A stretch of 60,000 nt of DNA, taken from contig NC_087082.1 in NCBI RefSeq assembly GCF_026151205.1, forward strand, positions 8,938,901-8,998,900, read 5' to 3'. Positions 1,111-46,275 of the stretch are shown piece after piece. This DNA comes from Bolinopsis microptera (Eukaryota; Ctenophora; Tentaculata; Lobata; Bolinopsidae). The notes beneath the pieces were generated by a model that saw nothing but the letters and a program-made list of their open reading frames with translations, was not told where the DNA came from and made no database searches. A program made the translations under genes and the position numbers. Numbering within the stretch: the first letter of the stretch is position 1; each line of letters opens with the position of its first letter.

Positions 1111-1730
1111 TATCTTCAGTTCATTGCATGAGATCCTTCTGAAAATTGGCGACGACCTTCCAATAGGGCTTTCACAACTGTCCGAAAAATTTGGTGGATA
1201 TCGGAGTTGATGTAGTGATAAAAATGGGGCAAAATACGCTGCTTTTAGCTGTAACATAATGTTTGATGGTTGGATATGCTTTACACTTTTCGGACACTTT
1301 TCTTGTAAGTCTATGAGTAAGCTTACCAATTTTTGTTGCAATCGGAGGTCGGGAAGGATACTTAATATCTATTTGTTTGAAGAAAATTGTGCTGGCCGAA
1401 ATTAGCGCTAAAAAACCATCCTACAGTCGGCACGCGCGGCTCACTGTCGATGGCGCACTACCTACTCAAACTAATTTAGGGTCAACAGAACATGAGTGTT
1501 TACGTAAGCTGACCAAATTTCGACAAAATTGTTATATGGGAAGTATTATAACTTTCCCAGCAGACCTTACTGGCTGGCAATATTACTACAGGTAATTGTG
1601 TCTTCACAGCTTGTTGAACTCAGCGCGCGCTCAAACATTCCAAGAATGCAATTGCACCACGTACCACGTGATACGATTCAGCCAATTAGAGAACAAGAAT
1701 CTGCAAAGTTAAAGCTGCGCACTTTTATAA

Positions 1731-2350
1731 GGCCCAAAATAAGACTTTTCGCGATAATTCAAAATCTACGTCATACGTTGTTTTGAATTTTCCTCCTGGG
1801 GAGGAAACGTTATTTTCACAAAAAAAAAGAGCGAACATGGAACATTTTGTTGAAAACCAGACGTTTCTATCTCTTTTATTTTCGAACGCAAAGTTAGGCT
1901 TACCTGAGGACCCCAGACTATTATGTTCATTAACGGAATGACAGGCTGAGCGCGGCCCAGTAAAGTTAGGCCCCTACCAGTATGAGTAAGGTTTCCTGGG
2001 GTGACCCCCACTGTCGCTTAACTTCATTATAGTTGTAGCGCGATGCACTACTGGGTCGCGCCGCGCATCAAATAATTCTTCTCGCAACCACATGCAGATC
2101 GGCGAGATGCGAAGGATTGACATCGTGAATCAACACTATGCACTATTATTAGGCCCAAAATAAGACTTTTTGGAATAACTCAAAATCTAAAATGTCCCTA
2201 ATTTTCCTCCTGGGGAGGAAACCTTATTTTTACAAGGCGATTATTTTGCAAAAAATCAGAAGTCTCTACCTCTTTTACTTTCGAAGTTAGGCCCCAGCCA
2301 GTAAGGTTTCCTGGGTTTTGATTGTTTCCGAAATAATGTGCTGGCCGAAA
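1731..2350. repeat. Duplicated non-coding block
   Basis: The segments 1731-1830 and 2152-2240 both begin GGCCCAAAATAAGACTTTT and share TTTTCCTCCTGGGGAGGAAA, so they are two diverged copies in direct orientation. The first is followed by a mini-MITE insertion. No gene is seen in the block. The short open frames here are not supported by any recognisable domain. Confidence 0.6.
1900..1962. mobile_element. Mini-MITE copy 1 (TTACCTG family)
   Basis: A 63-bp insertion starting TTACCTGAGGACCCCAG and ending GCGCGGCCCAGTA. It is flanked by the exact 9-bp direct repeat AAGTTAGGC (1891-1899 and 1963-1971). The core GGAATGACAGGCTGAGCGC is shared with copies at 10152, 33083, 33174, 41785, 55982 and 57228. 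The 9-bp duplication suggests a Mutator-like or similar transposase acting in trans, which is inference. Confidence 0.75.
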
Positions 2351-2755
2351 TACAAAATACGAGCTAATGGCTTAAAAACCATTCAATGGTCAGCGCGCGC
2401 GTCTTACGGTCGATGACGCACGGCCTATTGCAAGCATTATGTGAATCTTACGGGCATCTTCTGCTCAATACATAGGCTGAACGTATTTTTGACCGTAGAA
2501 ATTTTAGAATCGATTAAAAGTGATTTTAAAATGATACGACTAAACTGAGTTTCCCTTAACGGGTGATACTCGTAAAATATTTGTTCCAAATATTGGTGAT
2601 TGGAACGTCGACGAGTCCAACTCAATGTAAAACTCAAAATGATTGATTCACAATGTCAATCCTTCCTAGCTCGGCGAGGCCCAGTGGTGCATCTCGCCGA
2701 TCTGTGGTTGCGAGAATATGCGCGGCGCGGCCCAGTAGTGCATTGCACTACAAGA
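2038..2755. repeat. Inverted pair of a dispersed repeat
   Basis: The segment 2038-2130 (GCGCGATGCACTACTGGGTC ... GGATTGACATCGTGAATCA) recurs in opposite orientation at 2644-2755. A third copy in the first orientation sits at 32163-32300. The copies are CG-rich relative to their surroundings. No gene is seen between them. Confidence 0.65.
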
Positions 2756-3450
2756 TCAATAATAGTTTGTGCGGCATAAGTGGAGTGTATGGACTGTATG
2801 CAGCCCTTTCAGTGCACCTAATTTCATAAATCTGGATCGGAGGTCCTAGTTTACCCAATACCCGCCCTGAAAGAAGCAACTAATAAAACAGTAAGCTAGC
2901 TAGGCCAGGTATTACATAATATGTATGATTATGAACATAAATATAATAGCTTGAGGTCATCGGGTAACTTAATTCCGCGCACGGCCGAGGCATTCTTTAA
3001 TGCGTCGATCTGCAATTCTGAATTCACCTCGAAAAATGCTTCAAATTAAAGTACTCCAAATCAAGGATTGACATCAATATCAATTTGACATATGTTGCAT
3101 GCCACTATTCGCGCGCGAAGCGCGCGCCGCCGAAGTCGAAAAAAGGGGCATATAATGAAGGAAATCGGACTTTTTAGAGGGACGCATATTTTGCGTCCCT
3201 ATTAACCTATTTGATTGTAGGTTTACAACCTACCAGGACGCGCGCCGAGTTGGACTCGTCGACGGTCCTGGATATATGGAACAGATATTTTACGAGTATC
3301 ACCCGTTAACCTATTTGACCAAATATGGGAGTAATTGAGTGAGATGGCGCGCAGCAGTGAAACAGCCTAGAACACACCTCCACTAGAACACACCTCCACC
3401 CACGAGCTCAGTCAACCCTCAGCTCTGTCTTTTGGCATATATTAAGATGC
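2756..3450. other. Intergenic, no gene seen
   Basis: No convincing coding region. It holds a GC-rich hairpin at 3110-3126 (GCGCGC stem, GAA loop) and, near 3440-3472, a roughly 30-bp phrase (...GCAATGAAACTACCGGACT) that recurs inverted at about 16598-16632. Confidence 0.5.
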
Positions 3451-3559
3451 AATGAAACTACCGGACTCTGTTAAAAATTTAACAGGGATATTATCTGGGC
3501 TTCTGGGATATTATTTTGCTGCTTTCGTATCAGCTGCCACAACCTCTACATCGAAAGGG

Positions 3560-3884
3560 GCAGATACGAAACCCCCCTTGTACCAAGAGAAGAACGTTGG
3601 TGCACCTACTGCTTTTTCAGCAAAGGGCTCAAGCCTATTGAGGACGAAAGTCACGTATTGATTGACTGTTTGCTCTACTCCTCAGTTAGGGAAAATTTCA
3701 ATTTCCATCCCCAAAACAATACTGACCTAGTCGGTTTGCTCTCCAACAAAACTCTAGATCCTACCACACTCACTGCCACAGCAAGAGCAATCCATTCAAT
3801 TCTCTCTGTGAACGAACAATATACAGCCTATTATAAGAGCCCAGATTTCCACTCAAATACTGGCAAGTGCATAATGCTATAGGA
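3560..3884 (+). pseudogene. LINE polymerase C-terminal zinc-knuckle remnant
   Basis: In the frame that reads RWCTYCF...KPIEDESHVLIDC (about 3591-3669) there is a C-x2-C-x13-H-x4-C knuckle, followed by LLYSSVRENF. This layout, with the acidic EDE/EDES before the histidine, is typical of the far C-terminus of several non-LTR retrotransposon polymerases. The frame stays open to the stop near 3880. The polymerase core is absent upstream, so this is a 5'-truncated copy, as usual for dead LINE insertions. It is a different family from the CR1-like LINE at 6.5-12.9 kb. Confidence 0.65.
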
Positions 3885-3938
3885 AAATTGAACCATACAA
3901 ACTCGATTTATCTATTTTTCTAAAACTAGCATTATATA

Positions 3939-4225
3939 CAGTGGCGTAACGTTGCCTGTTGGCGCCCCCCTGCCGAAAAGGCGCCCCCCTGTTGGCGCCC
4001 CTCTCCTTTTGGTGCCCCTCCCTAAAATTGAACAAATTAGGCGATTTAAGAGGATACGCCGGTAAAATCTCTAAAAAAGTGTGTATCTAGAGCAAAACGC
4101 GCAGTTTTGCTAGTACTTTAGTTAAGTTTTCGAAATTGTCCCACATTCAAACGACGATTTGGCGCCCCCCTAAGACGACGCCCCCCTGCACAGCGGGGTC
4201 AGCAGGGCCCTTCGTTACGCCACTG
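3939..4225. mobile_element. hAT-type MITE, copy 1
   Basis: Terminal inverted repeats CAGTGGCGTAACG (left) and CGTTACGCCACTG (right) are flanked by the perfect 8-bp direct repeat ATTATATA (3931-3938, 4226-4233). CAGTGGCGTA ends and 8-bp duplications are classic for hAT elements. The 287-bp interior is non-coding and rich in GGCGCCCC. A second copy at 30866-31166 is about 95 percent identical. Confidence 0.92.
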
Positions 4226-4767
4226 ATTATATAACATTTCTAAATTATCCCTACACACTTGTAAATAATTAGAATTGTGTAACTTAAATTATTTCAGAAT
4301 TACAACTATTGTGTACTCAATAAGGTCAATGAAACAAGAAATTTCAATGAAACAAGAAATTTGATTTTAGCACATTTTTACAGAATAAAAAGATGTAAAA
4401 CAATTCATAAAATATAATGCCCATTTGGTGTATGACTTTTTGTCCTTGACTGCTAGTTTGGTTTTGGAAGGACAGGTAACTAACGGGGCAAGGAATGCGC
4501 GTGCCTGGAAGCTTTTGCACACACCGAAACGCTAGTTCATTTAAGTTTATAGAGACAAGGCTCAGATTAGGACTAGAAGAAAAATTGTAAGCAGACATTA
4601 GGGTTCTGTTTATAGTTGTTATTATAGGTTGCAGTCTTGTTGTGACAAAAAGTCTACACTAAAACATTCTTTAGTTTATAGTGTGTAGTTCAAGGATATA
4701 AAATGCAGCTTAAAGTTGGATATTGGAGAGCTGGCGAAAGATTATGGCCTTTGTATCAATGGTTATA

Positions 4768-4867
4768 ATAAGCTATAAATATCTTAAACTATACAGTGCT
4801 AATTAAAAATTTCTTTTATAAGCTATAAATATCTTAAACTATACAGTGCTAATTAAAAATTTCTTTA
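4768..4867. repeat. 50-bp tandem duplication
   Basis: Two identical units beginning ataagctataaatatctta stand head to tail. They are AT-rich and non-coding. Confidence 0.85.
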
Positions 4868-6479
4868 AACTTCATTCTCAAATTAGATTTAATAAAATTC
4901 AAAAGTAAATATACAATAATTTTATTAAAACTTTCTCACACATACTTTACTCACAGGACAAGACTTGGAAAACAGTAGCCTAGGGTAATTTTAATTGAGA
5001 TGTGTGTGACCAGCCAGTTATAATGTTTGGGAAATAAGATTTGCGCAGTCAAAATCTTTGACAGTCCAATCAAGCAGGGCGTGATTATGTTGATTCGTTA
5101 ATAGCGCACGTTTTAGCTTACCTCGCAAGCACATTACACTAGTAGTAAAGTCAGTCATTCTGAATTTTGGGGTTAAAATGTTAAAAATTTTGGTTGATCT
5201 AGTGTTGTGATTGTCAGGTGGGCCTGGGTCTGCCTGACAGATTAGAAGGCAGGGTTTCCTCGAGGAACATGTGTAACCCTCATGTAAGGATATTGGAGCA
5301 CGGACTTTCATTATCTTGTAGAGCTCGAGGTAAGTGCCCAGTGGCAAATAGTCAGGCGTCCAGGAATTTAACACCTAGTCAAAATTTGTTGATAACCGGT
5401 AAAAAAAGATTCTTGTGGAAAAAATATTCACATTAATTTAAAATTAAATCAAAATTGGTCGCTCTCAGGGCTAACGCGATGTTACATCATTTTATCGACT
5501 CGAAGTTCGAATCGAGCGCATTCCTAGATTCCATGACTATTTCTTACCTATAAGATTGCTTGACTATTTTTTGCGCATTCAGACACCAAAAAACGCGCAG
5601 AAAACGCGAGCTATCCATTCCTCCTTCCTCAACATCCCGGAATATGAAAAAATAGTCATGTAAAATAGTCATTTGAAATAGTCATGCAAAATTTCAGCTC
5701 TGATACGCTAAAATATCAAGTTAATCTTAAACAATCGACAATCTAATATGAATCCTCCCAATCCTCCCAGCCATATTAACTGGTGAACGGTGTAAATATA
5801 GAGCGGTATTTTAAAATGTAGCATTCAAAATTTTATGGATTCAAGTTGGCTCCTTTAGTCTAGATTCATTTAGAAAATTCTCGAAGTTCGACTAATACAG
5901 TATTCTCAGGGTTTGGCGCTTAAGGAAGCTTCACATCCGAGACCGATTTCCACGAATCAATTTAATATTGTAGCTACAAGTCAACAACAGTGCAAGTGGG
6001 AAGGAAGTGAATCTAGCCATTGCTACTATATCAGGGGAACTCGTGTGTTCTAGGCTTAAGCAAGCTTCACATCCTAGATCATCTAGAGTACAGTGCAGAC
6101 AACCCCCTCCATTATACACCCCTATCCCGCTTTAAGTCCGAAGTTTATCATTGTTTATTCTCCAATAATGTATCTAACCTGGCAGAAGCAAGCTTCAGAT
6201 CCAAAGTCAGGCCATAAATATCGACACAAGGTCGATGCCACTTTCAGAGTAGCGAATCGTTCATCATGCTGATGAGGGTGGAATGTTTGAACTCGATCTA
6301 CCGAGTTAATGTGAGGAATAGTATGGAAATGTCTGTGGGCTAGGCTCTATACTTCTTTTAAAAAATATTTCCTTGCGTTTCAAATAAATTAAAGAATTCT
6401 CAGAAATTTTTTATTTAATTTCAAAATTTGCAATTGCATATTCATCCGGTAATTATTCTAATGGATACGCTAAGCATTT
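4868..6479. other. Intergenic, no gene recognised
   Basis: No supported gene. A 118-codon minus-strand frame (5018-5374) shows no domain I recognise and no splice context. Near 5930-6200 the phrase aagcttca(c/g)atcc recurs three times at about 130-bp spacing, a degenerate tandem repeat. Confidence 0.4.
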
Positions 6480-6653
6480 CAAACTAATCTTGACCTGGGA
6501 GAAGAGCCAGTGACAAGTCGGCCGCAAAGCGGCCGAAAAATATATAGCCTTTTTTTCTTCCCAAAATGGATTCCTAGTCATATTTAAAATTTATTCCACT
6601 GGGGGTAAGTGTGGTATGTATAGAGATTTTGTATAGCTAGAATATTATTATGC
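6480..6653 (-). pseudogene. CR1-like LINE ORF2, C-terminal end
   Basis: Reading from the TTAA target site leftwards on the minus strand gives FKHNNILAIQNLYTYHT, which continues directly from EHTKPIF on the far side of the piggyBac-like insertion. This HNIL...QNLY(T/V)YH motif is characteristic of CR1-clade C-termini. Stops follow soon after (near 6590), so the end is decayed. A GC hairpin (CGGCCGC stem, AAA loop) lies at 6519-6535. Confidence 0.75.
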
Positions 6654-6657
6654 TTAA

Positions 6658-8691
6658 AGGACCAGTTAACTGAAAAAAAAGTTATCCTCATATTTTGACA
6701 GATTATGACAAATAGCAAACTAAGCAACGAGTCGAAATTCCTAAATCTTTAACTGCTCTCTAACGCGTGTAAATAGCGTTTGTATTATTTTGGCGATGAC
6801 GTCATAAAGTCCCTTGCGCGCGCAGAGGAGCTCGTGAGACTGTATTTTACAGGTAGAAAATGGACATAGTACAATGTTTTTCCCCGAATAATTCGAAAAG
6901 TAAGTAATTTAGGGTACATGTTGCTTCATAAGTTGTATATAAACATGGCCATTCTGCACAAGTTGCACACATTCAAAAACCTTTAGGGCCTTCATAGCCC
7001 AATTTACCAGATACCCATAGTTTTACATGATTTCTGGAACCGAAAATCAGTTTTTCGCCAATAACTGAAAAAGTAAGTACTTAAAGGCATATGCTTGTTC
7101 GTTAGTCATATATTAATATGCTAATTGCGGTTCTTTTGCACCCTCTCTAAAGACTCTATCACGATCCTATCGAAAATGGGCTCAGCACCACGCCCAAAAT
7201 GGTTTTTGGCGAATTTCTCGAAAAGTAAGGATTTTAGGCCATGTGTTGCTCAATGACTCCTATATAAACATGCATATGCGGCTTCGTTTAAGCCTATTTT
7301 GAAGTCTCTACGACCTTCAGAAGCAAGGGGTCAGTTACGTTATTGGGTCAATATGGGCGTGGCCCTCCTGGGTTTTCTCCACGGTAAAAAAATGTCTCCA
7401 AACGAAAATCGTTTATTCATACCTTCGGGAAGGTCTGTGCAAAGTTTCGTGAGCATTTGAACATTTGCAGGTTCATTTCCATAAATGTCCATAAATGACT
7501 GGACTACACAACTTTAGAGTTAACTGTAGAGAAACTAAAGAAGTCATTTATTTCAAATTAAGCTGTTAGTGTCCATGATCATCCTGTGGCGACAATGTTT
7601 TACGTGAAATGTAAAAATCAGGAGTAATATAAAAAGTGTATTTTTAGATTAAAGTCCTAGCTCATAGTTTTAGAATTGTATAAATTAACGTTGGTCGTTT
7701 AGCCATCTAACAATCGATCGTGCCGTAATATATGGCCAGAGAATAATAGGGTCTTGGAAATTCTATAGTTGTTCAGTGGGTCGATACTCGATTGACTGAA
7801 CACGTTTGCACTTGGTATTTAAACTTACCAGTAGTTTATTTATGTTATGCACCGATGATAATGCAATTAGGATAACAACTACTACTAGGTAAGCCGTAAG
7901 TATAATTCAAAAGACACCGCACACCGTACACTCCAATCAGTATTACTAGTATTTGGTAGACCGGATATTTTGGCGGGAATTCTGTTCCCACGGCACTGTT
8001 CTGATAGAAGCTACTTCGACTAATGGTCCCAGAGGAACGGCCGTAAAGTAGCCAGACTTCTTGTCTCCTGTACTGGCTGACACATGCGGATTAAAGTTAG
8101 AAATTTCGCTATGCTATAAATATAATTGCTCTCGGAATTGAACAAACTACTTATCTAGATCCTTTCTAAATTCGTTAGAGTTTCATGGACTGGGGAAAAA
8201 TAATCGGTACAGTATCCCTGCTTGTGTAATTAAGCAATGAAAACAATCCAAAATTATCACATATGACATAAGTTGTAATAGCAGAAACTTTCTAACCGTA
8301 CATTCACCCGCCACTGTTCAAGAACCTATATCACTGTTTAAAATCATGACGTGAGCACTGTACATCCAATCAGCTATTCCTTTAGTTAGGATGATAGCCA
8401 AAACTATAAGGATTTTGGAGAACTAGGGTAATAGTCATAATTCTAAAATTTGAGTGAGTTACACTTGTTTTATTGACGATGATAAACATTTGCAATGTAT
8501 TAAACGCTATGCAAGCGCGCACTGAGGGACTTTATGACGTCACGAGGCCACAGCTTATTATTGCAATAACACGCGTTACACGTACGCTAGAGAGTTGGTT
8601 CTTTCGGCGATACGATTCTTTACCAGTTTGTCACAGCTGATTTAAATCTTAGCCAAATTGGAGACTACAAATTTTTCAGTTAACTGGTCCT
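6658..8691. mobile_element. piggyBac-like non-autonomous element
   Basis: It begins AGGACCAGTTAACTG and ends with the inverse CAGTTAACTGGTCCT, with TTAA directly outside each end (6654-6657, 8692-8695). TTAA duplication is the mark of piggyBac and some Kolobok elements. Imperfect inverted homology extends about 180 bp inward, to GATGACGTCATAAAGTCCCT at 6794 and its inverse near 8520. The 2034-bp interior has no open frame of 60 codons, so a transposase must come from elsewhere. Three diverged tandem copies of about 158 bp, each with '(g/t)aaaaagtaag' and 'catatgct/atgttgct', occur at 6885-7290. Confidence 0.85.
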
Positions 8692-8695
8692 TTAA

Positions 8696-9782
8696 ATATC
8701 GGTTTGGTGTGCTCTTTTATGAAAAATTTTTGGTCAAGATTCTGGTGTCCTATAGGCCTAGTACGTGCACAAGTCTTAAACTTATCAAGGTACGCCAGCC
8801 TGTCACCAAATAGTACTCTGAGACAGTACTTCTGAGCAGTAAATAATGAGCTTATACGTTGTTTCGCTGCCCCACCCCATACAGATATACAGTAGGAAAG
8901 ATGTGATTCGAACAGGGTATAATATAATTGTTGGTGTAGAAATTCTGGAAGGGAGCAGCGAAGTCTACATAAAGTGGATGTGGAATGATTTAGAGTTCGT
9001 TTAAGTGCTTTGATGTGATCTTCCCATGATAGGTTCTCGTCAATTATAACACCCAGAAATTTTGCGGATGAAACCTAATGTAACTTATTCGCTCTCATAT
9101 AAGACTTTAATGATGACAAAAGCTCATTTCCTCGTTCATATGCCTCACATTTTGTTTTGCCGACAACAAATATATTGGTATCATCAGCAAAGGTAACAAA
9201 TGATCCTAGTTTAGAACTGTTTGTGATGTCGTTCATATAAAGAAGAAATAGGAGAGGTCCAAGAATTGAACCCTGTGGGACACCAAATTGAATAGATAGG
9301 GTATCTGATTTTTCTCCTACAACTTCGGTGTATTGTTGCCTGTTTGTCAAGTAGCTTTTAATGAGGTTATTTGCAACCCCTCTCACTCCACATCCCTCTA
9401 GTTTTATAAGAAGTGTTGAATGGTCGATAGTGTCAAAAGCTTTGCTTAGGTCAATGAATATTCCTAAAACATGATTCTTAAGTTTAAGAGATTTCGTAAT
9501 CAAATTTACAGAGTAATTGACTGCATGAGATGTAGAGTGAGATTTCCTAAATCCAAACTGCGTCTTCGATATAACTCCCTGGGAGCTAACAAATCCGTAT
9601 ATTCTAGAATATATGAGCTTTTCAAAGATCTTACCGAAGACGGACAGTGTGGAGATAGGACGGTAGTTCTCAATTTCTTCTGGGTTACCTTTCTTATATA
9701 CAGGTGTTATTTTACCAGTTTTCAGGACATCAGGAAATATACCTTTGGTCATAAGGATATTGAAGTAATTCGATAATACAGG
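8696..9782 (-). pseudogene. CR1-like LINE ORF2: reverse transcriptase
   Basis: The LINE-derived reading begins at the target duplication near 9782 with PVLSNYFNIL; the upstream lysines and ATG come from the inserted poly(A) and are not native. Polymerase motifs are all present: TGKITPVYKKG and NYRPIS, FGFRKSHST, FIDLSKAFDTIDH (first catalytic Asp), GVPQGSILGPLLF, and FADDTN (catalytic Asp pair; FADD replaces YADD). A stop at 9075 after MRANKLH is followed at once by VSSAKFLGVIIDENLSW, so about 40 residues between these motifs seem deleted. The thumb and C-terminal part then run open to the TTAA target (EHTKPIF). Role: target-primed reverse transcription when intact. Inactive here. Confidence 0.85.
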
Positions 9783-10267
9783 TTTTTTTTTTTTTTTTTT
9801 TTTAGAGAGGCTGGGCCTGGTTGGCCCACGAGAGGATAGCATATGAATGCTTTGCCTACCTCTGGGGTATGGCAGTCCTGTGGGAGGATGCCAGTGGAAT
9901 CAAGATGTGTAATCAAGGATGATGGTAAGTGTTGTGGGGTGTGTCATAGATAAACGCTTAAGTGGTGGTTGAGTGTGGAAGAGAGAGAGGCGAAATAAGA
10001 CGGCGTTAAAGTAGTCGCTATGTTACACCTGTCTGGTCCAACTCCTCTGGCACCACTAAGCGTTTAGTGTGGTTTGTAAAGTTGACAATGGTGGAGATGT
10101 GTTGGTTGTCGAATATGTCATTGACAGAGAGGTAGTAGTCCCGGAAATATTACCTGAGTACCCCAGGCTTTAATGTTGTAAACAACAGAATAGAGATTAG
10201 GCGGAATGACAGGCTGAGCGCGGCCCAGTAACGGAAATATTGACCTCTTATTCGGGCAATAGCCGGG
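9783..10267 (-). mobile_element. Inserted retroelement 3' tail with poly(A)
   Basis: A run of about 21 T on the plus strand is the poly(A) tail of a minus-oriented insertion. The 12-bp direct repeat CGATAATACAGG at 9771-9782 and 10268-10279 is its target duplication. The tail-proximal phrase GCCCACGAGAGGATAGCAT recurs beside an oligo-T run at 53603-53660, so this is the 3' end of a repeated LINE or SINE family. An 80-bp mini-MITE sits inside at 10152-10231. No open reading frame is supported. Confidence 0.85.
10152..10231. mobile_element. Mini-MITE copy 2 (TTACCTG family)
   Basis: An 80-bp element from ACCTGAGTACCCCAGGC to GCGCGGCCCAGTA. It is flanked by the exact 10-bp repeat CGGAAATATT (10142-10151, 10232-10241). 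It is nested inside the LINE-tail insertion, which is nested inside the CR1-like LINE, so it is the youngest of the three. Confidence 0.85.
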
Positions 10268-10279
10268 CGATAATACAGG

Positions 10280-12082
10280 TGCGATTACATGAGATGACTT
10301 TTTTACTACACTTATGGGAATGTCACTGGCTTTACCATTTTCGAACTCGCTTTATATGATTTTCAATATTTCTTTCGAGGAGCAATCTTCTAGCCTAATA
10401 TTTTTTTCATTTCATGGGTTCAGGAAGTCATAGAAAGTTTTCATGGGTAATATAGGCAGGCCATCAGATAGATTATACAGTGTCTCATTCAGCTTTGGTG
10501 CAATAGAGACAAACCAAGCATTGAATCCATTAGCAATTGCTCTTCTGTCAACTATTCTTTGGTTATCAATGATAAATGGGGGCTTGGTTTGCCTCTTCTT
10601 TTTGCCCCTGAGTTCGTTAATAATTTGCCAGGTTTTATTGCTGTTTTCACAGTTGTTTAGGATTTCGTTACAGTAATGCCAACGTTTGGCAGCTTTAATG
10701 ATAGCTTTGAGCATCCTACGATAATCACTAAATACTTGGTAGAGCAAGAAATTACCACCAGGGTTCTTATTAGTAACGGTGTCAGACCACTCCTTACGCA
10801 GTTCATGCTTTCTTTCTACAGACTGGATGATACTGTCTGTAATCCATGGGTTAAGTTTGGGAGTTCTTTTTGTCACTTTTGGTACCTCCAGTTTGCAGTG
10901 TTTGTCAAGTGTCTGGTCAAAACATGCCGTGAACTCATCAAATTTTGTTGAAGGAGTGAGCTGGTTTACCGTCACCTCAAGTTCAGATACAAAGCTTTTT
11001 AATTTGGAACTTGAGTAATCATAATAGCGGACATGTTTCTGAGGCTCTGTATTGCGAGGGGTATCTACTGAAGTGAAGGTAAATATAGGGGCATGCTCAC
11101 CAAGCCGTTCTTCAATAACACCTGATAAGACTATATTCTCAATTTTATTTGTTAAAATGTTATCGATGCAGGAACTTTTACAGTTTTGACGAAAATGTGT
11201 TGCAATGGAGATAGTCGGGTAAAAGCCGTTTCTGTATAAAGTATCCTCAAAGAGCTGGGAACTGGTAGAAATATTAAGTATGTTTGAGTTAAAGTCTCCC
11301 AACAAATTGACAGTTTTCCCATTTAGCTGCTTTGCAAGTAATTCAAGGGTTTCACAAAAGCTATCAAAGCAGCCATTAGGGGGTCGGTAGATGACTCCAT
11401 GAACAATTTTGCAGCCTGCGCTATCTGTGGTTTCAACAAAGAGGCTCTCAATATTTGTAGTACAGTGTGATACGTTTTCTAAGACCACAGTGTTTAAATG
11501 GTCAGATACATAGAGTGCAACACCTGTGCCTTTTTTCTTACCTGCCAATGTTTCTTGATAGAATCCTGTGTATGCTGGAATTTGGTACAGACCCTGCTGT
11601 GCAGGATCAGTATTGGTTTCAGCAAGACCAATCATATCAAACGAGTGCCCTATACTTTTGAGTTCAATTAGGAAGCTATCAAAGTTAGATGCGTTTCCAT
11701 CTATATTGTAGAATAAAGTTGATAACGTAGATTTTTTAGAGGAATTAAGCTGCTTGATTGCATTTAAGAACTCGAGTTTAGAGTAGCGACGGCAACTTTC
11801 AAGTACATGGGCATATGATGCAATTAAGGCATCCTCCTGGTTTCTATTATCATAGAATCTATCAGAATCAATAGATTCCTCATCAGATGGAAATGGGCAG
11901 TACCGTTCTTCTGCAGAACTGGCACACTCGCAGCACATCCATAGTCCATTTTTGCATGAATATTTAGCTGATTTGAAACACTTAGTATGAATGGCATTAT
12001 TACAGTTTTCACACTCTAGTAAAGGTTGTCCGATGTTAATAGATCTACTGCATGGCTCACACACATCTTTAATAATTTTCAT
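10280..12082 (-). pseudogene. CR1-like LINE ORF2: PHD finger and endonuclease
   Basis: The frame is open for 556 codons from the ATG at 12082 and stops after YDFLNP; in-frame LINE sequence continues beyond to the insertion site with another stop (KII-stop-SEF). An N-terminal C4HC3 PHD finger uses Cys8, 11, 24, 27, His32, Cys35, 50 and 53, with Trp48 in the usual PHD place. Next comes an exonuclease-endonuclease-phosphatase domain: YNIDG, LAETN (catalytic Glu), VIYRPPN, LLGDFNSN (Asp/Asn pair), CIDNIL, and ERLGEHAPIF. The last motif has GEH where active enzymes have SDH, so the catalytic histidine stays but its Asp is Glu. The domain nicks target DNA in intact LINEs. The long frame suggests fairly recent insertion. 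Confidence 0.88.
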
Positions 12083-12093
12083 AATAATTTTTA

Positions 12094-12624
12094 CTAAGTG
12101 GGGTTGTTAGACCCCACTGACTGGTTGTGTTTTCCACGTCTTGTCCGCTCTTGCCTCTCTCTCACATACACCCAATGCTTCACACACCTCACAAATTTGG
12201 TAATACCATAAACTCCTAAGTGAATATCATCACCACCTCTGGTCAGGTTGGTGGCAAGGAGTCCCTTACTATCTAAAAAGTGTCCAACTCCAAGGTGCCA
12301 CACACTCTGGTTAAAGTTGGCACTCAACATTTCTCCAACAAGCCGATTGAAGGTCATGATATTCTCGTTCATTTGAGGTAGCCTGGTTGGAAAGACTGCT
12401 GCGACAAAAACTTTGATCCTAGGGGAGAGCTTTTTTATCTGTTGGATTTTCATGTGGAGAATGTCAACCAGCTGATGGATTGAATTTTCTCCCCTAAGGC
12501 TGTCTGCTCGGAGGTCATTTGTGCCACAAACAAGAACAGCGTTGCTGTATCCGATACAGTGACAAGGGTCAATCAAACTAACTTTGCTTGCCTTAACTCT
12601 TTCACCCGGGAATGATTGACCCAT
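12094..12624 (-). pseudogene. CR1-like LINE ORF1: SGNH esterase fragment
   Basis: The 176-codon frame ends 11 bases before the ORF2 start, as expected for a bicistronic LINE. VLVCGTNDLR (residues 31-39) is block III of SGNH/GDSL hydrolases, and GDDIHLGVYG (131-140) carries the catalytic Asp-x-x-His. Block I, with the nucleophilic Ser in GDS, should precede MGQSFPGERVKA; here the preceding codons read LPGSGAGT, so the serine motif is lost or altered. ORF1 esterases of CR1/L2 LINEs bind the RNA particle and may act on lipids. The true ORF1 start must be upstream, where a TATCCTTG microsatellite now lies, so the N-terminus is broken. Confidence 0.75.
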
Positions 12625-12654
12625 CGTTCCAGCACCACTACCAGGTAATTATCA

Positions 12655-18615: not shown

Positions 18616-18767
18616 GTAAGTTAAATAATTTATTAATTACTTCACTTGGTAAGTTAAATAATTACTCGGTTATTAGATTCAGTAAGTTTATTAATTAATT
18701 AATTACTTCACAAGTGGTAAGTTGTACCAAATTGCTGAGTAACTTCTTCGTTATTGGGATTATTTAG

Positions 18768-19676
18768 CCACTGTACCTGCAGCCACTGTACCTGCAGCCA
18801 CTGTAACCTGCAGCCACTGTACCTGCAGCCACTGTACCTGCAGCCACTGTACCTGCAGCCACTGTAACCTGCAGCCACTGTACCTGCAGCCACTGTACCT
18901 GCAGCCACTGTAACCTGCAGCCACTGTAACCCGCATGGCAGCGACTGTAACCTGCAGCGACTGTACCTGCAGCCACTGTAACCTGCAGTGAGTGCAGCCA
19001 CTGTAACCTGCAGCCATTGTAACCTGCAGCCACTGTAACCTGCAGCCACTGTACCTGCAGCCACTGTACCTGCAGCCACTGTACCTGCAGCCACTGTACC
19101 TGCAGCCACTGTAACCTGCAGCCACTGTACCTGCAGGCTGCAGCCACTGTAACCTGCAGCCACTGTAACCTGCAGCGAATGTACCTACAGCCACTGTAAC
19201 CTGCAGCCACTGTAACCTGCAGTGGGTGCAGCCACTGTAACCTGCAGCCACTGTAACCTGCAGCCACTGTAACCTGCAGCCACTGTTCCTGCAGCCACTG
19301 TTCCTGCAGCCACTGTACCTGCAGCCACTGTACCTGCAGCCACTGTTCCTGCAGCCACTGTACCTGCAGCCACTGTAACCTGCAGCGACTGTAACCTGCA
19401 GCGAATGTACCTACAGCCACTGTAACCTGCAGCCACTGTAACCTGCAGTGAGTGCAGCCACTGTAACCTGCAGCCACTGTAACCTGCAGCCACTGTAACC
19501 TGCAGCCACTGTTCCTGCAGCGAATGTACCTACAGCCACTGTAACCTGCAGCCACTGTAACCTGCAGTGAGTGCAGCCACTGTAACCTGCAGCCACTGTA
19601 CCTGCAGCCATTGTAACCTGCAGCCACTGTACCTGCAGCCACTGTACCTGCAGCCACTGTAATCTGCAGCCACTGA
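18768..19676. repeat. Minisatellite, 15/16-bp unit
   Basis: About 58 copies of GCAGCCACTGTA(A)CCT, with 15- and 16-bp variants mixed. Inserted GTGAGTGCAGCC phrases and 'gcgaatgtacctaca' variants recur at about 210-bp spacing, which shows a higher-order unit. Each unit carries CTGCAG. Long open frames on the minus strand are translations of the repeat and not genes. Confidence 0.95.
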
Positions 19677-19967: not shown

Positions 19968-21178
19968 TACATCCCTAGCTAGGAGAGACAAAAGGTCCCT
20001 AGCTAGGAGAGACAAAAGGTCCCTAGCTAGGAGAGACAAAAGGTCCCTAGCTAGGAGAGACAAAAGGTCCCTAGCTAGGAGAGGCAAAAGGTCCATAGCT
20101 AGAAGAGACAAAAGGTCCCTAGCTAGGAGAGACAAAAGGTCCCTAGCTAGGAGAGGCAAAAGGTCCATAGCTAGGAGAGACAAAAAGTCCCTAGCTAGGA
20201 GAGACAAAAGGTCCCTAGCTAGGAGAGACAAAAGGTCGCTAGCTAGGAGAGACAATAGGTCCCTAGCTAGGAGATACAATAGGTCCCTAGCTAGGAGAGA
20301 CAAAAGGTCCCTAGCTAGGAGAGACAAAAGGTCCCTAGCTAGGAGAGACAATAGGTCCCTAGCTAGGGCCTAGGAGAGACAAAAGGTCCCTAGCTAGGAG
20401 AGACAAAAGGTCCCTAGCTAGGAGAGACAAAAGGTCCCTAGCTAGGAGAGACAATAGGTCCCTAGCTAGGAGAGACAATAGGTCCCTAGCTAGGAGAGAC
20501 AAAAGGTCCTTAGCTAGGAGAGACAAAAGGTCCCTAGCTAGGAGAGACAAAAGGTCCCTAGCTAGGAGAGACAAAAGGTCCCTAGCTAGGAGAGACAAAA
20601 GGTCCCTAGCTAGGAGAGACAAAAGGTCCCTAGCTAGGGCCTAGGAGAGACAAAAGGTCCCTAGCTAGGAGAGACAAAAGGTCCCTAGCTAGGAGAGACA
20701 AAAGGTCCCTAGCTAGGAGATACAATAGGTCCCTAGCTAGGAGAGACAATAGGTCCCTAGCTAGGAGAGACAATAGGTCCCTAGCTAGGGCCTAGGAGAG
20801 ACAAAAGGTCCCTAGCTAGGAGAGACAAAAGGTCCCTAGCTAGGAGAGACAAAAGGTCCCTAGCTAGGAGAGACAATAGGTCCCTAGCTAGGAGAGACAA
20901 TAGGTCCCTAGCTAGGAGAGACAAAAGGTCCTTAGCTAGGAGAGACAAAAGGTCCCTAGCTAGGAGAGACAAAAGGTCCCTAGCTAGGAGAGACAAAAGG
21001 TCCCTAGCTAGGAGAGACAAAAGGTCCCTAGCTAGGAGAGACAAAAGGTCCCTAGCTAGGGCCTAGGAGAGACAAAAGGTCCCTAGCTAGGAGAGACAAA
21101 AGGTCCCTAGCTAGGAGAGACAAAAGGTCCCTAGCTAGGAGATACAATAGGTCCCTAGCTAGGAGAGACAATAGGTCC
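19968..21178. repeat. Minisatellite, 24-bp palindromic-core unit (left block)
   Basis: About 50 copies of CCCTAGCTAGGAGAGACAAA plus AGGT. Every unit has the perfect palindrome CCTAGCTAGG. Truncated junctions AGGGCCTAGGAG at about 20366, 20638, 20788 and 21059 divide the block into alternating 272- and 150-bp stretches, making a 422-bp higher-order repeat that is nearly identical between its two copies. The 24-bp period keeps frames open on both strands (LLARDLLS; RSLARRDK), which is not evidence of protein. Confidence 0.95.
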
Positions 21179-22680
21179 CACAGTGGGAAACCATTATGAC
21201 ATTAAGCAAAAAATCGACTTTCTATAAATGTTTTGAATTTAAAGTTATTTCATAGTCAAAATTTAGGGGAATTCAGAGCAAAAAACCGTTTTCAAAAACA
21301 TCAAAAGCCCTTTTCGCAGTCGCGCTATGAATTTTGAGGAAAAAAGAGGTAGGCAAAATTTCGGTTTTTTCAGTGAAATTTTGCCTGTTTTGACATTTTA
21401 GCCCTCCAAAAGGAACTTATGTGCCACAATGGAGGCTATATTGTCATGTTTAGGCAAAGAATCATCCTTCTAATGTTTTTTAACCTATGAAAATTGAAGT
21501 TTTGGTTGATTTTTGATGCGCGAGCGAAAAAATTACGCTTTTTCAGCCAAATTTTTGACAAAAATGGGCATAAAAAGTTGTGAGCACACCATAGCACGCC
21601 TCAAAACACTATTGCATGTGAAACTAGACACTATTTTGAGGCAAACCCAACTCTGCAACCTGCGGCACTATGTGGCACTTTTTTTACAGAGCGCTTTGAA
21701 AATCTTTGACGTGTAGAAAATGTGCAATTTTTGCCTATTGCTAGTTGATACTTAAATGGTCAAAAATTGCGTCTAGGAATACATTTAGAGCTTCAAAACA
21801 TATCTAAATGTATTTTTAGGCTATAGGTAAGCCTAAGAACATACCCTTAAGTCAAAATCTAGCAAAATGTAGCAAAAATCTAATAAAAACTCAAATTTTA
21901 TGATCAAAACAGTCATTTTGGTGGATTTTTGGACCAAAAAACCCTCTTATTTTGCATTTTAAAATTCAGATTTTGTCAGAATTGGACCATTTTAGTGTCA
22001 AATTGTAGCTAGCAGTGAGCTGAAGACAATGAAATAATAATTTAAGGTCTTAAAGGGCAAAAAGTATTTTATAATTGGATAATTTGGTGAATTTCGAGGC
22101 TAAAATGGCAAATTTTCCAAGATTTTCCAAAATTTCGCCAATTTTTTTCCTTAAAAACTTCAATTTTTACCCTACAACGACAAATTTGGTACCGGAAGAA
22201 AGTTCTCGGAGAGCTCATAACCACAGAATACATTTTAAAGACATGGGAATTGAAAATTTTGTGCAAATCCACAAAAAGGGCTTCCCTCTGTCCTCAAAAT
22301 TTAGGGGGCCTGAACCCTAAAAATTGTGATGGTATCAATTTCAAAACCATTTAGTGCAAGTTGTTTGATATGGAATATCTCGAAATTATGTGTACTTATG
22401 ATTAAAACCAAAATAAATAAGCAAAATAGCATTTCTAGGCTTTTATCAGCCATTTTACTGGCCAAAACATGTTAAAATAAGGCGATTTTTGTCATTTTCC
22501 ATAAAATATTTCAAAATTTTCATGAAAATCGATTTTTTTCCGATGATACCCCCACCCAAACATCTGGGGAGGTGTTTCAGACATGTTCCGGGTCAATTGA
22601 ACTTCAAAAAATAACGTATGGTGATTAAATCGTCAATTATAGCTTAATGTCATAATGGAGGCTGTAAATTTCCCACTGTG
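21179..22680. mobile_element. Transib-like element with RSS-like ends
   Basis: A 1502-bp insertion splits the 24-bp minisatellite cleanly. Both ends start CACAGTGGGAAA. The 5-bp GGTCC directly outside each end is the target duplication. At the left end, heptamer CACAGTG (21179-21185), 13-bp spacer, then ACATTAAGC (21199-21207). At the right end, inverted, the same heptamer (22674-22680), a 23-bp spacer and the same 9-mer (22642-22650). Transib transposons and the related RAG recombinase use CAC(A/T)(A/G)TG ends and 5-bp GC-rich duplications; CACAGTG is the V(D)J consensus heptamer. The interior is AT-rich and non-coding, so the element is non-autonomous. Family assignment is inference from ends and duplication. 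Confidence 0.7.
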
Positions 22681-23139
22681 GGTCCCTAGCTAGGAGAGAC
22701 AAAAGGTCCTTAGCTAGGAGAGACAAAAGGTCCCTAGCTAGGAGAGACAAAAGGTCCCTAGCTAGGAGAGACAAAAGGTCCCTAGCTAGGAGAGACAAAA
22801 GGTCCCTAGCTAGGAGAGACAAAAGGTCCCTAGCTAGGAGAGACAAAAGGTCCCTAGCTAGGAGAGACAAAAGGTCCCTAGCTAGGAGAGACAAAAGGTC
22901 CCTAGCTAGGAGAGACAAAAGGTCCCTAGCTAGGAGAGACAAAAGGTCCCTAGCTAGGAGAGACAAAAGGTCCCTAGCTAGGAGAGACAAAAGGTCCCTA
23001 GCTAGGAGAGACAATAGGTCCCTAGCTAGGAGAGACAATAGGTCCCTAGCTAGGAGAGACAATAGGTCCCTAGCTAGGAGAGACAATAGGTCCCTAGCTA
23101 GGAGAGACAATAGGTCCCTAGCTAGGAGAGACAATAGGT
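22681..23139. repeat. Minisatellite, 24-bp unit (right block)
   Basis: Nineteen or so units of the same 24-bp repeat as the left block, in the same orientation and phase. The last six carry the CAATAGGT variant in place of CAAAAGGT. It was continuous with the left block before the transposon inserted. Confidence 0.95.
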
Positions 23140-23990
23140 CGGTAAAGCTAAACATAAAGCTAAAATATATATATTGTATACCCAGATGTGTATTAATTAA
23201 GTTCGGTTATACAATATCTTGTTCTTTCTGTCACCTCTCTACCTTAATATTCATATTACATAATGTATTATAAATGAATATTAAAGTAGCGAGAAGTGGG
23301 AGGTCACAGATATCCTAAAGAACTAGATATGACAACCGATTTTCATTGCAAAAACAGATAACTTAAATATACTATAGAGTATATATGTCAACTGTGTGCC
23401 TATTAAGGCCTAAGTTCTACATTTTGTTGCACAATCACTGTGGTTACCACACTGGGTTGCCCTCCGCAAAATGCTCTGTTCCAAGCCCAAATTAGCACGG
23501 GCTGTTACCAGGTTATTTCTGGCATATTCTTCAAAACTTTACGAAATATATTAAAATGTAGATTTTGCTTGGTCCTCACGGTTATTAAACGGTTAACTGT
23601 AGCAAACCCTGTTTGAAACCTGTGACAGTTGCTTTATTTCTAGACACCATACTTTTGGAATCTGGAGGGGTTACATTAAGAGTATAAGTTTTGACACACC
23701 TTTTTTAATAGTTTCCTGGACTTTTAATTGGATTGAAATACACTCACAATTAACTAGAGAACTACTAAATCGTATGAGACAGTTGACACATCTATAAAAT
23801 TGAGTCCTGTGAATATTTTTGATTTGCAGGACATGAGTGATAATCAACTTGAAACTTTCTTTTGAAAAAGTTACCAAATTTTGTATCATTTATAATTATA
23901 ACCGAATATATGCATTATATAATAAGTGAATCAAAGTTTAAGGGGGCAGAGGGGGGGTCCTCATGGAAATTTTCTCAAAATCGATTTTTT
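23140..23990. other. Intergenic, no gene seen
   Basis: No supported coding region. The 72-codon minus-strand frame at 23671-23889 lacks recognisable features. Confidence 0.4.
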
Positions 23991-36213: not shown

Positions 36214-36380
36214 CAGCACTACATTTCTACTGAACCTCTGTCATAGAAAGAACCATCACTATCTGCAGAGCACTACATTTCTACTGAACCTCTGTCATAG
36301 AAAGAACCATCACTATCTGCAGAGCACTACATTTCTACTGAACCTCTGTCATAGAAAGAACCACCACTATCTGCACAGCA
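36214..36380. repeat. 54-bp triplication covering a gene's 3' end
   Basis: Units 36217-36270, 36271-36324 and 36325-36378 are nearly identical. The last one encodes the C-terminus and stop codon of the transporter gene (QIVVVLSMTEVQ-stop). The other two repeat the same in-frame 18 codons beyond the stop (QIVMVLSMTEVQ-stop). Confidence 0.92.
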
Positions 36381-38218
36381 CTGACCACCAAAGCAGTGAT
36401 GATAACAGACGAGGTGGGGGTAAAAGCGACCATTGCTGATCCAGCCATCAACCCAATCATGCCCATTGAGGATGCAATGCAAATACCTGCAGCTATGTTA
36501 GTTGTTCCAAAGTAATTCACATCGTACAGGACATACATGTAGCTCAAAGAAGTGATACCGTACAGGAACTTAGCTATGAAGTTGGTTAAAATAACTATTG
36601 CTAGGTTATATTGTGTGAGCATCACTGCAAAGGATGCTATATATATCAAGGCAGTTAACACCTGCAGTTTACGAAATGCAATCTTGTCTTTTATCCAGTG
36701 CATAAGTAAGAAAGAGGGTATAGCTGCGAAGTTAACAAGTGCCAGTAACAAGAGTTCCGGTCCTTGAGTCATGGTATCAGAGCAATGATGGGTCGGTCCG
36801 GCTTCCCTGATCTTTAGCATCTGAATCAACGCTGGAACCAGGAGGGTTGTTAGATAGCCGTTAAAACTAAGACAAGCAATAAACAGCCCAAGTTTTGTGG
36901 TTCGAGCTGCAAAGTCTGGAACGGTCACTGTTTCTTTCTGGTCTTGTCCGTCTTCTGCCCCTTCTATCTGTGGGCCTTCCGTGTCTTTAAAACAGCAATG
37001 AACCATGAAGATTGGCGGAACTAATGCGGGCAAGGTCGCACAAAGTAAGAACCACCTCCATCCAATCCAATCAAGTAGCAGGTACCCCAACACTGACGAC
37101 CACATTCCCCCGACAGCGGAGAATATGGATGTTATCAAAAAAATACTGGCTAGAACCTCTTTGCTGGAAACCATCTCAGCGACCCAAACATACAAAATGG
37201 TGTATCTGAGTCCGCAACATAGCCCAAGGAAGATCCGAGAGAGTAGGAGGGTGGTAAAGTTAGCAACTGTAGCACAGATTACTGTACTGAATGCGCTCAG
37301 ATATAGCGATATTAAAATCAACTTCCGTTTTGGAATCCTGAGATGAAATATGATTACCTTCTCATTTAAGAAATTTTGTACTGGCAGATGGTTTAATGCA
37401 GACAGACGGTTTCAATTGAATTCTTCGAAATAAATACTTAAATAGTGAACACAATAATGTTTACCCTAACTGTTTTTGTACCTATTTGCCAATACTCCGG
37501 CAATAATGATTGAAATTGCCAAGGCGAAGAACAGAATACATTCAAATGATCCTTCTTTCAACTGAGACAGTTCAATGTCACATGAAATTTGTTGAGTTAT
37601 CGTTCCTAAAGGGAGGGAAGATGGTTATCAGGCTTATACACATTACACGTGTACGACGTTACCTTATAGTTATATGGGCTTATCACGTGATCAGTAATAC
37701 CTTATATGGGCTTATCACGTGATCAGTAATACCTTATATGGCACTTCACGTGATCAGTAGTCAGTAATGCCTTATATGGGCATTTCACGTGATCAGTAAT
37801 ACCTTATTATATGGGCTTATCACGTGATCAGTAATACCTTATATGGGCTTATCACGTGATCAGTAATACCTTATATGGGCTTATCACGAGATCAGTAATA
37901 TTTTATATGGCACTTCACGTGATCAGTAGTCAGTAATACCTTATATGGGCATATCGTCACGCGATCACGGAGGATTATTATCAGGCTTACACACGTGTGT
38001 GTTACACCGGGTAGGAGTGAGGCTATAAAATCCTTTATTAGTCTATTTCCCTTAATTGCAGTTTTTAAAATGATAGTTTTAAACCTACCAGGTATATCAA
38101 TTTCTGTTCCATCCGCAAAATCGCACAGAAGACCAAATATCAACAACAACTTATCATTTCTTGTCCAAATTGTCGTATTGTCTTTATTAACCAGGGTGTC
38201 CTTCTCATCTTTTTCCAT
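36335..38218 (-). CDS. SVOP/SV2-like MFS transporter, three exons
   Basis: Exons on the minus strand: 38089-38218, 37482-37605 and 36335-37337. Donors are CCTG|GTAGGT and AATAG|GTACAA; acceptors are CCTTTAG and CATCTCAG. Joined, they give 418 residues that align from end to end with the two 420-residue neighbours. Exon 1 carries TRNDKLLLIFGLLCDFADG (first membrane helix), exon 2 ITQQISCDIELSQLKEGSF and helix 2, exon 3 helices 3-12. LLLSRIFLGLCCGL and DWIGWRWF match the helix-4 and helix-5/6 signatures of SVOP/SV2 and SLC22 relatives. A likely small-molecule or organic-ion carrier; the substrate is unknown. A CACGTG minisatellite fills intron 1 and a palindrome lies about 135 bp upstream of the start. 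Confidence 0.85.
37655..37965. repeat. Intron minisatellite with CACGTGATCA
   Basis: About nine units of roughly 31 bp (TTATCACGTGATCAGTAATA plus CCTTATATGGGC), with some units carrying an extra CAGTAGT. It lies wholly in intron 1 of the transporter gene and brings repeated CACGTG E-box cores. Confidence 0.88.
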
Positions 38219-43055: not shown

Positions 43056-44318
43056 TCAGTTTCGTTCATTAATTAATGACCAAACCACAGCAATCTGTGC
43101 AAGACTAACAATCAAACCCACTATAACAGCATGAAAAGGGTCAAGGAAGACAGCGAGAGCAGTACTTGTTACACTACCTACTAGACATCCTATCTCCATC
43201 AGGGAACCACCCAAAGACAAGCCAGTCAGTCCAAAATATTCCACATCGTAGCTTAGGACGCTTTTCTCTGCTCCCTGCATCGAATAACACAATTTTCCTA
43301 TTCCCATCATTATGCATTCTACGAGTAAGCCAGGTCTTGCTAGGATGATCCCGTAAGATATGGCGAATCCAAGCATGAAGGTAGTTTGAAGCGTTATAAA
43401 CTTGAAATGTGGTCTAAGAAAAAATCCTATCGGCCTTCCTATGATGTTGGCAAGGCCATTGACCGCAGCAAGGATCATATATTGATCTCCATGTACGACT
43501 TGCTCACAATTATCGACATCTACAGATACGTTGGTTAGATTGTAATTTCTGATGAGTGATGGAAGGAGCATGACACTCAAATATCCTAGGAAGATGCTAA
43601 AGCCTCCGAAAAGGCTCGCCTTAAGAACTCTCTCAGCAAAGTTTTCAACAGACCGAGATCCATTTTGATCTTTGAGAAGGCTTGTTGATTCATTAGCTGT
43701 AATCTCTTTGTCAAAGAAACAATGTAGCATCAATATTGGTGGGATGAACAAAGGAATAGAAGTAAGAAGAACAAATGTCCGCCATCCTATTTTATCTAGA
43801 AGAAACCAACCCAGCAGCGACGCCCAACCAGAACCGAACGTAAATGCAATGCAGTCATGAAGGAAAGAAAATGTTGGTAGAATATTTTTAGAAGAAACAT
43901 TTTTTGCACCGAAAACTCCAATTGTTGTCGCGTTTAATCCACAACCAAATCCTATGAGAGCTCTAGAAAGTAGAAAAGTATAATAATTGGGAACCAACGA
44001 GCAGAATATGGTAAATAGTATGGAGCCATACAGTGAAAAAAGCAAGATGGTTTTATCACCGCATTTCTTCGTCAGCGGAACAGCAGCTAATGTACTAATA
44101 CCTGTAAATACATAAAAGATTGTAGCAGAGGACCCTTCCTGGAAAAAGGAGACCCCAAGCTCGCAAGAAACCTTTTGTGTAATTACGCCGGGCAGGTAAA
44201 ATTCCACAGCATCCCCAAACTTGATCAGCATCGCCAGAACAAGCATACAGTAATCGTTTTTTGTCCATCTCGAATTATTTTGGTGGGGCGTCATCTCAGA
44301 CTCATCTTGAACGGCCAT
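43056..44318 (-). CDS. SVOP/SV2-like MFS transporter, intronless copy 1
   Basis: 420 codons from the ATG at 44318, uninterrupted. Twelve hydrophobic segments can be laid out: six up to LMLHCFF, a polar loop with ESTSLLKDQNGS, then six more. Signatures are GDAVEFYLPG in helix 1, KKCGDK in the 2-3 loop (the place of the DRxGRR motif), LLSRALIGFGCGL in helix 4 and LDKIGWRTF before helix 6. The SVOP/SV2 and SLC22 groups of the major facilitator superfamily share these; length is shorter than vertebrate SVOP. Plasma- or vesicle-membrane carrier, substrate unknown. The three-exon paralog at 36335 aligns throughout, so loss of two introns suggests an old retrocopy later duplicated in tandem. Confidence 0.9.
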   Translation of the reverse strand: MAVQDESEMTPHQNNSRWTKNDYCMLVLAMLIKFGDAVEFYLPGVITQKVSCELGVSFFQEGSSATIFYVFTGISTLAAVPLTKKCGDKTILLFSLYGSILFTIFCSLVPNYYTFLLSRALIGFGCGLNATTIGVFGAKNVSSKNILPTFSFLHDCIAFTFGSGWASLLGWFLLDKIGWRTFVLLTSIPLFIPPILMLHCFFDKEITANESTSLLKDQNGSRSVENFAERVLKASLFGGFSIFLGYLSVMLLPSLIRNYNLTNVSVDVDNCEQVVHGDQYMILAAVNGLANIIGRPIGFFLRPHFKFITLQTTFMLGFAISYGIILARPGLLVECIMMGIGKLCYSMQGAEKSVLSYDVEYFGLTGLSLGGSLMEIGCLVGSVTSTALAVFLDPFHAVIVGLIVSLAQIAVVWSLINERN

Positions 44319-44827
44319 TCTCCTGAATTATAAATGTCAATAAACAAATTGAAGAAAGAATCCATTGTTGTACTTGTACAGTATACTAGAACAGTTTTTT
44401 GGATCTACATCGATTAAACCGCAATTGAAATGTGAACTGGTTGCATTAGAGTTCAATTAAACAGCAATATAAATGGACTTCGAAATACAATCAGACGAAA
44501 ATTGTATTTTCGAGATCCTCCGATAAAGTTTGATTTAAAATTTAATTAGTCGAGCGATGAATCAGTAAAACTCCGTCAATATATTAATCTAATATGACAA
44601 TAACATATATCTAATAATCTAGCGCTACAGCAATACTAATACTTTTAATAAAACAATAAAAAATGTAATATAACGGTAACTTAGTAAGTTACAGAAGAAT
44701 TGATCCTAAAAAGTAAAAAGGATTACGTTACATTTCAAGTCTTTTCTGGTCCAAGAACCCCTAAAACAATCAAAACAATCGCGTTTGGAAGATAATCGCT
44801 TCTACAAGTCTAGATTGAAGCCTTCAG

Positions 44828-46090: not shown

Positions 46091-46275
46091 TCTCCTGAAT
46101 TATAAATGTCAATAAACAAATTGAAATAATCCATTGTTGTACTTGTACAGTGTACTAGAACAGTTTTTTGGATCTATATCGATCAAACCGCAATCGAAAT
46201 GTGAACTGGTTGCATTAGTGATTAGAGTTCAATCAAACAGCAATATAAATGGACTACGAAATACAATCAGACGAA

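Follow-up and report, generated by a model that had tools for sequence, protein, structure and literature searches.

A stretch of 60,000 nucleotides of the genome of the ctenophore Bolinopsis microptera (NC_087082.1, positions 8,938,901 to 8,998,900 of the forward strand, hereafter the window) carries at positions 21179–22680 a complete insertion of 1,502 bp, which with a probability of roughly 93% belongs to the Transib superfamily as a non-autonomous element that a Transib (RAG1-like) transposase mobilises in trans. The assignment follows from the complete ends of the element, the 5-bp target-site duplications, an end layout shared with sister families and a 121-bp homology to an autonomous Transib of the same genome. 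Its two ends are unequal: an inner sequence block common to both lies 10 bp deeper in the right end than in the left, and the tips carry the heptamer CACAGTG known from the recombination signal sequences (RSS) of vertebrates. The C and L numbers below are our handles for sequences and loci of the genome.

The Element and Its Insertion Site

The following features of the element and its target are referred to throughout.

19972–21179, no strand: 24-bp minisatellite TCCCTAGCTAGGAGAGACAAAAGG, left part, the insertion site; the end given by Tandem Repeats Finder (TRF) runs 1 base into the element
21174–21178, no strand: left target-site duplication GGTCC
21179–22680, + strand: Transib-type element, complete and non-autonomous, 1,502 bp, lacking a long open frame
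21179–21190, + strand: left terminal block CACAGTGGGAAA with heptamer CACAGTG
21191–21207, + strand: left second block CCATTATGACATTAAGC, adjoining the terminal block (13-end)
21211–21222, + strand: subterminal motif AAATCGACTTTC, common to the 13-end of two sister families
21278–21287, + strand: subterminal motif GCAAAAAACC, common to the 13-end of two sister families
22642–22658, − strand: right second block CCATTATGACATTAAGC
22659–22668, − strand: 10-bp extra spacer TTTACAGCCT, only in the right end (23-end)
22669–22680, − strand: right terminal block CACAGTGGGAAA
22681–22685, no strand: right target-site duplication GGTCC
22681–23140, no strand: 24-bp minisatellite TCCCTAGCTAGGAGAGACAAAAGG, right part

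The GC content of the element is 33%, and no stop-to-stop frame of 150 or more amino acids lies inside it, two such frames near the right edge extending into the minisatellite; an earlier reading made from the letters alone (the sequence-only reading) had rightly called it non-autonomous. Both tips, read inward, are CACAGTGGGAAA, which occurs nowhere else in the whole window when up to one mismatch is allowed. At the left end the 17-mer CCATTATGACATTAAGC adjoins this terminal block, and at the right end the 10 additional bases TTTACAGCCT lie between the two. The 9-mer ACATTAAGC is thus found 13 bp from the heptamer on the left and 23 bp from it on the right, exactly as the sequence-only reading had it. 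It should be noted, however, that the label 13/23 hinges on which bases are chosen as nonamer, and that the register-free statement is an offset of 10 bp. When the two 60-bp termini are compared, the longest inverted match without mismatch is 17, as against a maximum of 11 in 500 single-base shuffles.

The element is flanked by GGTCC on each side, and when it is taken out together with one GGTCC, a regular 24-bp minisatellite unit is restored. Since the terminal palindrome continues into the flanks, the window alone leaves a choice between 5, 3 and 1 bp for the length of the duplication.

A Second Copy Settles Tip and Duplication

A search of the same genome revealed one other copy (C6:19643345–19645076), which matches the window element with 99.8% identity along 867 bp and with 98.6% along 630 bp and has the same two unequal ends. 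It is bordered by AGGAG on either side; therefore the duplication is 5 bp long and the tip is CACAGTG. Both points had been claimed for the window element, and the heptamer is now seen at both ends of both copies. The C6 copy is interrupted by an inserted foldback palindrome, at about 2713–2945 of L008 (G000:C6:19641500-19647000), that is bordered by TTAA on each side and has CCC-type tips; we take it to be a piggyBac-like miniature inverted-repeat transposable element.

Further copies were looked for with a 12-mer scan, which gave 45 matches versus 21 with the reversed pattern. Among the 30 of the 45 matches examined as loci there was no new copy; 14 of them belong to an unrelated repeat (CACAGTGGGAAAGGTTGAAG...) and 2 are the C6 copy. 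A scan for ends of near families (19 matches versus 2 with the reversed pattern) found three further CACAGTGGG ends, each of the 13- or the 23-type. To these belong a complete 1,169-bp element with 13/23 ends and an ATGTG duplication (L134) and an element whose right tip has a 2-bp deletion (L133). Twelve of the 19 matches are another repeat (CACAGTGCCCTCAGTAATC...) with different sequence and spacing, set aside since it lacks CACAGTGGG.

An Autonomous Sister Element

The genome contains on C3 an autonomous Transib of 3,927 bp with 13/23 ends that carry CACAGTGGGC, a TATCT duplication and a gene for a RAG1-like transposase. Its left end is homologous to that of the window element over 121 bp (about 72% identity). 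The sequence-only reading had considered that an active Transib or RAG-like source might exist elsewhere in the genome and had proposed to look for an autonomous partner with Transib and RAG1-core profiles; such a partner exists, encoding a RAG1/Transib homologue, but judged by its sequence it is a sister family and not the window element's own source, which was not found.

The transposase corresponds to the B. microptera protein LOC134813500 (P0001), a RAG1/Transib homologue, which is 100% identical to the C3 locus over residues 248–649 and 98.8% over residues 1–252, across the intron border. It has a DDE triad, the RAG1 fold and a CTT1 zinc motif, the last present in P0001 as CKHCDMRGHSRRWC, and the gene is apparently intact.

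An autonomous-type copy on C2 is rearranged:

L041 (G000:C2:19695500-19705400), 4900–8757: rearranged autonomous-type Transib copy, 23-end tip joined to its own interior

In this copy the half from the 23-end to the core is inverted relative to the half from CTT to the 13-end; the core-half frame is without CTT1, and a CTT-like piece lies nearby in inverted orientation. The 23-end tip abuts TGTGG at the CTT side exactly, and the core side terminates with TGTG. ATATG is found outside the 13-end and again at the junction of core and flank, and these outer borders probably preserve the original duplication. The simplest reading of this single locus would be a one-ended auto-integration, in which the 23-end, once cut, was inserted into the interior of its own element and the flank was joined imprecisely.

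In the stretches examined around the transposase fragments on C2 (7.13 Mb) and C5 (14.08 Mb), no ends could be recognised. Between about 12.6 and 14.1 Mb of C5 many transposase fragments are clustered, several of them with stops, together with a lone 23-end (C5:13737463); this cluster could be a graveyard of Transib copies. Two peptide patterns run against bacterial and archaeal genomes picked out 90 stretches, none of them a confirmed relative, which is compatible with the bacterial Transibs that have been reported (PMC9435367).

Spacing, Pairing and Duplications in the Genome

Ends were collected with a pattern consisting of CACAGTGGG, a free gap of 0–30 and then CATNNTNNNWTWRG. It gave 102 matches versus 0 when reversed, and the count was equal with gaps of 3–14. 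Among the 100 matches listed there are 48 13-ends and 52 23-ends and no other spacing. Thirty-eight of the 39 pairs facing each other within 4.5 kb are complete 13/23 elements; 33 of the 38 have the block CATGCTAGCATAGG (in one, a base is changed at one end) and five have CATGATAGTTTAGG. The genome contains five or more types of end in which the offset is one turn and CACAGTG is complete; four of these types are seen as complete elements.

All 38 elements are flanked by an identical 5 bp on both sides (10/10 and 28/28), and in the group of 28 the longest flank match is exactly 5 in 27 cases and 8 in one with repetitive flanks. Together with the two copies of the window family, 5-bp duplications are found in 40 of 40 elements; L130 (see below), L133 and L134 are left out of this count, their pairs having been found by requiring a duplication. 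The second copy and the sister families thus keep both the 13/23 asymmetry and the 5-bp duplication, and no copies with symmetric spacers, with duplications of another length or with a partner from another superfamily were seen. The GC preference of the duplications, of which GGTCC had been described as GC-rich, is modest, with 49% over the 40 elements versus 38% in the window (p about 0.002 with the window GC as null). Judged by eye from 20-bp flanks, several Transib insertions, including that of the window element (21174–22685) and those at L074–L077, L096/L097, L112/L113, L118/L119 and L069, apparently lie within short tandem repeats.

Eight 1.1-kb elements that were compared are 98.6–99.6% identical to each other. 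They derive from the C3 type by internal deletion, their first approximately 498 bp being 98.4–99.4% identical to it, and this points to recent mobilisation in trans.

Several observations weigh against our interpretation and should be thought of when these counts are compared. As CACAGTGGG and CAT..T are obligatory in the pattern, the counts allow no variation in these letters and do not include diverged ends. One of the 39 facing pairs is 13/13, read by us as a larger element that harbours a solo end of a different type, and for 23 of the 100 listed ends the 4.5-kb range contains no partner in facing orientation. Copies of the same family share descent and are therefore not independent tests of pairing. 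In addition, no transposase source with the window element's own CATTATGACATTAAGC block was found, and the lone 23-end on C5 mentioned above, which carries this block, has no duplication-flanked partner within the 4.8 kb examined.

Is the Offset Functional?

With HzTransib and RAG as models, and with a nick, a hairpin at the flank, a blunt signal end and strand transfer as the steps described for HzTransib (PMC6941560), the reaction would proceed as follows. A transposase dimer would bind one 13-end and one 23-end via the CACAGTGGG tip and the second block, the NBD-like N-terminus and CTT1 perhaps taking part in end binding. A nick would be placed 5′ of CACAGTG, hairpins would then be formed on the flanks, and the blunt element would be inserted by strand transfer with a 5-bp stagger. 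An obligatory pairing of unlike ends is a plausible hypothesis. That there is a ctenophore rule of the 12/23 type, in which a RAG1-like transposase without RAG2 requires for synapsis a 13-end and a 23-end one helical turn apart, is a tentative proposal which may well prove wrong.

Alternatively, the offset could have arisen by chance in a single ancestral element and have been passed on without a role, the transposase mainly using the terminal 15–17 bp and being indifferent to the second block and its spacing, as proposed for invertebrate RAG-like (RAGL) complexes (PMC7204232). We regard this as a serious possibility, if short of a probable one. The high identity of the eight 1.1-kb copies means that most of the 38 asymmetric elements may stem from one event, and invertebrate RAGL has been argued to be relatively insensitive to asymmetry (PMC7204232). 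Against mere inheritance speaks the behaviour of spacer and second block. In seven 23-end types, picked by patterns fixing several letters of the second block, the spacer (positions 10–23) has drifted to a mean identity of 37%, as compared with 63% for the second block, while the length is always 37. Because the length is fixed while the sequence drifts, the 10 bp (one helical turn) by which one end is longer are most likely a functional spacer. Within a family, the second blocks of the two ends agree at 14/14 positions in four cases out of five (for CATGCTATATTAGG, one of the four, the two ends are from unpaired loci); between families the block differs (5–12 of 14), and the fifth family (C7) has 9/14 between its ends. 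This would fit a recognition block that co-changes with its transposase and lies one turn deeper at one end.

A second, 28–31% identical lineage also speaks against a passive accident:

L130 (G000:C6:5378500-5386500), 1608–5955; C6:5382014: second Transib lineage element, 4,348 bp, CACAGTG tips, TGGTG duplication

Here the common block CTGGAAARAATCAAGTT follows after 25 and 16 bases, an offset of 9 bp, and the long end is again located 5′ of the gene. This lineage supports the asymmetry separately.

A source with both RAG1L and RAG2L genes, of which the window element would be a non-autonomous RAGL derivative, is improbable. Heptamer-like ends, 5-bp duplications and CTT1 are common to RAGL elements and subgroup I Transibs; however, the best match of the C3 transposase by sequence in the PDB is HzTransib, and by its frames the 3,927-bp sister element appears to have space for the transposase only. 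No RAG2-like frame was recognised by eye among its frames of at least 70 amino acids, which comprise the two exon frames, one of 119 amino acids lying antisense to the transposase and three shorter ones (84, 76 and 74). That the element belongs to a different superfamily of cut-and-paste transposons whose ends resemble CAC (CACTA/EnSpm, which has 3-bp duplications, or hAT, which has other duplications), CACAGTG being coincidental, can practically be dismissed. In the window the duplication is also readable as 3 bp (GTC), but this reading was abandoned since 5 bp is the length in the C6 copy, with AGGAG, and in each of the 38 sister elements; moreover, the left end is homologous to that of a Transib which itself encodes a RAG1-like transposase.

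Relation to Known Systems

Terminal inverted repeats (TIRs) with 12/23 asymmetry are listed for Transib5 of Drosophila melanogaster and Transib2, N1, N2 and N3 of Anopheles gambiae (PMC8355894). By these descriptions, the insect elements share with those of Bolinopsis the heptamer and a distal element, a short and a long spacer about one helical turn apart, and 5-bp duplications. Compared by description, the offset is here 10 bp, CACAGTG is complete and the distal block is not nonamer-like; unlike in the list, the host is a ctenophore, and the transposase of the autonomous sister has a CTT1 motif. The list follows reference 8 of that paper, presumably Kapitonov and Jurka (2005).

Transib homologues are reported for ctenophores (6), and all subgroup I Transibs are stated to have asymmetric TIRs (PMC9435367). 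With subgroup I as described there, the Bolinopsis elements have asymmetric TIRs in common, and the autonomous sister also the CTT1 motif Cx2Cx3GHx4C and the lack of RAG2 in the element; a placement in this subgroup would be based on CTT1 and asymmetry. Ends starting with CAC, bipartite blocks, unequal spacers and 5-bp duplications are also found in AanRAGL, with spacers of 4/13 (PMC9435367), and in ProtoRAG, with 27/31 (PMC8289069). The two differ in carrying RAG2L, which the autonomous element does not, and in offsets of 4 bp (ProtoRAG) and 9 bp (AanRAGL) rather than 10 bp.

In the vertebrate 12/23 RSS the heptamer is likewise CACAGTG and one signal is longer than the other by about one helical turn, but the offset is 11 bp and the nonamer is ACAAAAACC. 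The resemblance to this nonamer holds at 6 of 9 positions for the window element, as had been noted, and falls to 5 and 3 of 9 for the corresponding 9-mers of two sister families. A conserved A-rich nonamer is thus lacking in the three Bolinopsis families compared; the likeness was dropped and in the window element is probably due to chance, the end being that of a transposon and not an antigen-receptor signal.

Among the papers that literature searches listed, none was recognisable from its title or the opening of its abstract as dealing with the Bolinopsis elements, and an earlier description is possible.

Other Features of the Window

Just upstream of the target array, at 18766–19675, lies a large minisatellite with about 60 copies of a 16-bp unit (AGCCACTGTAACCTGC). 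On the − strand, frames at 9075–12648 resemble by eye a non-LTR (long terminal repeat) retrotransposon (reverse transcriptase, endonuclease-like), the third of them (12094–12648) giving no Pfam match. Three frames at 36335–37411 and 43056–46099 (−) resemble transporters of the major facilitator superfamily (MFS); two appear by eye to be a near-identical tandem pair, and Pfam MFS_1 was found in both MFS-like frames scanned.

Significance

Transibs of the 12/23 type, asymmetric Transibs and ctenophore Transibs are already in print, and the Bolinopsis element extends this known group. The finding bears on the origin of the 12/23 asymmetry in V(D)J recombination. If the proposed rule is true, the Transib/RAG1 stem would already have had the one-turn asymmetry, and neither RAG2 nor the vertebrates would have added it.
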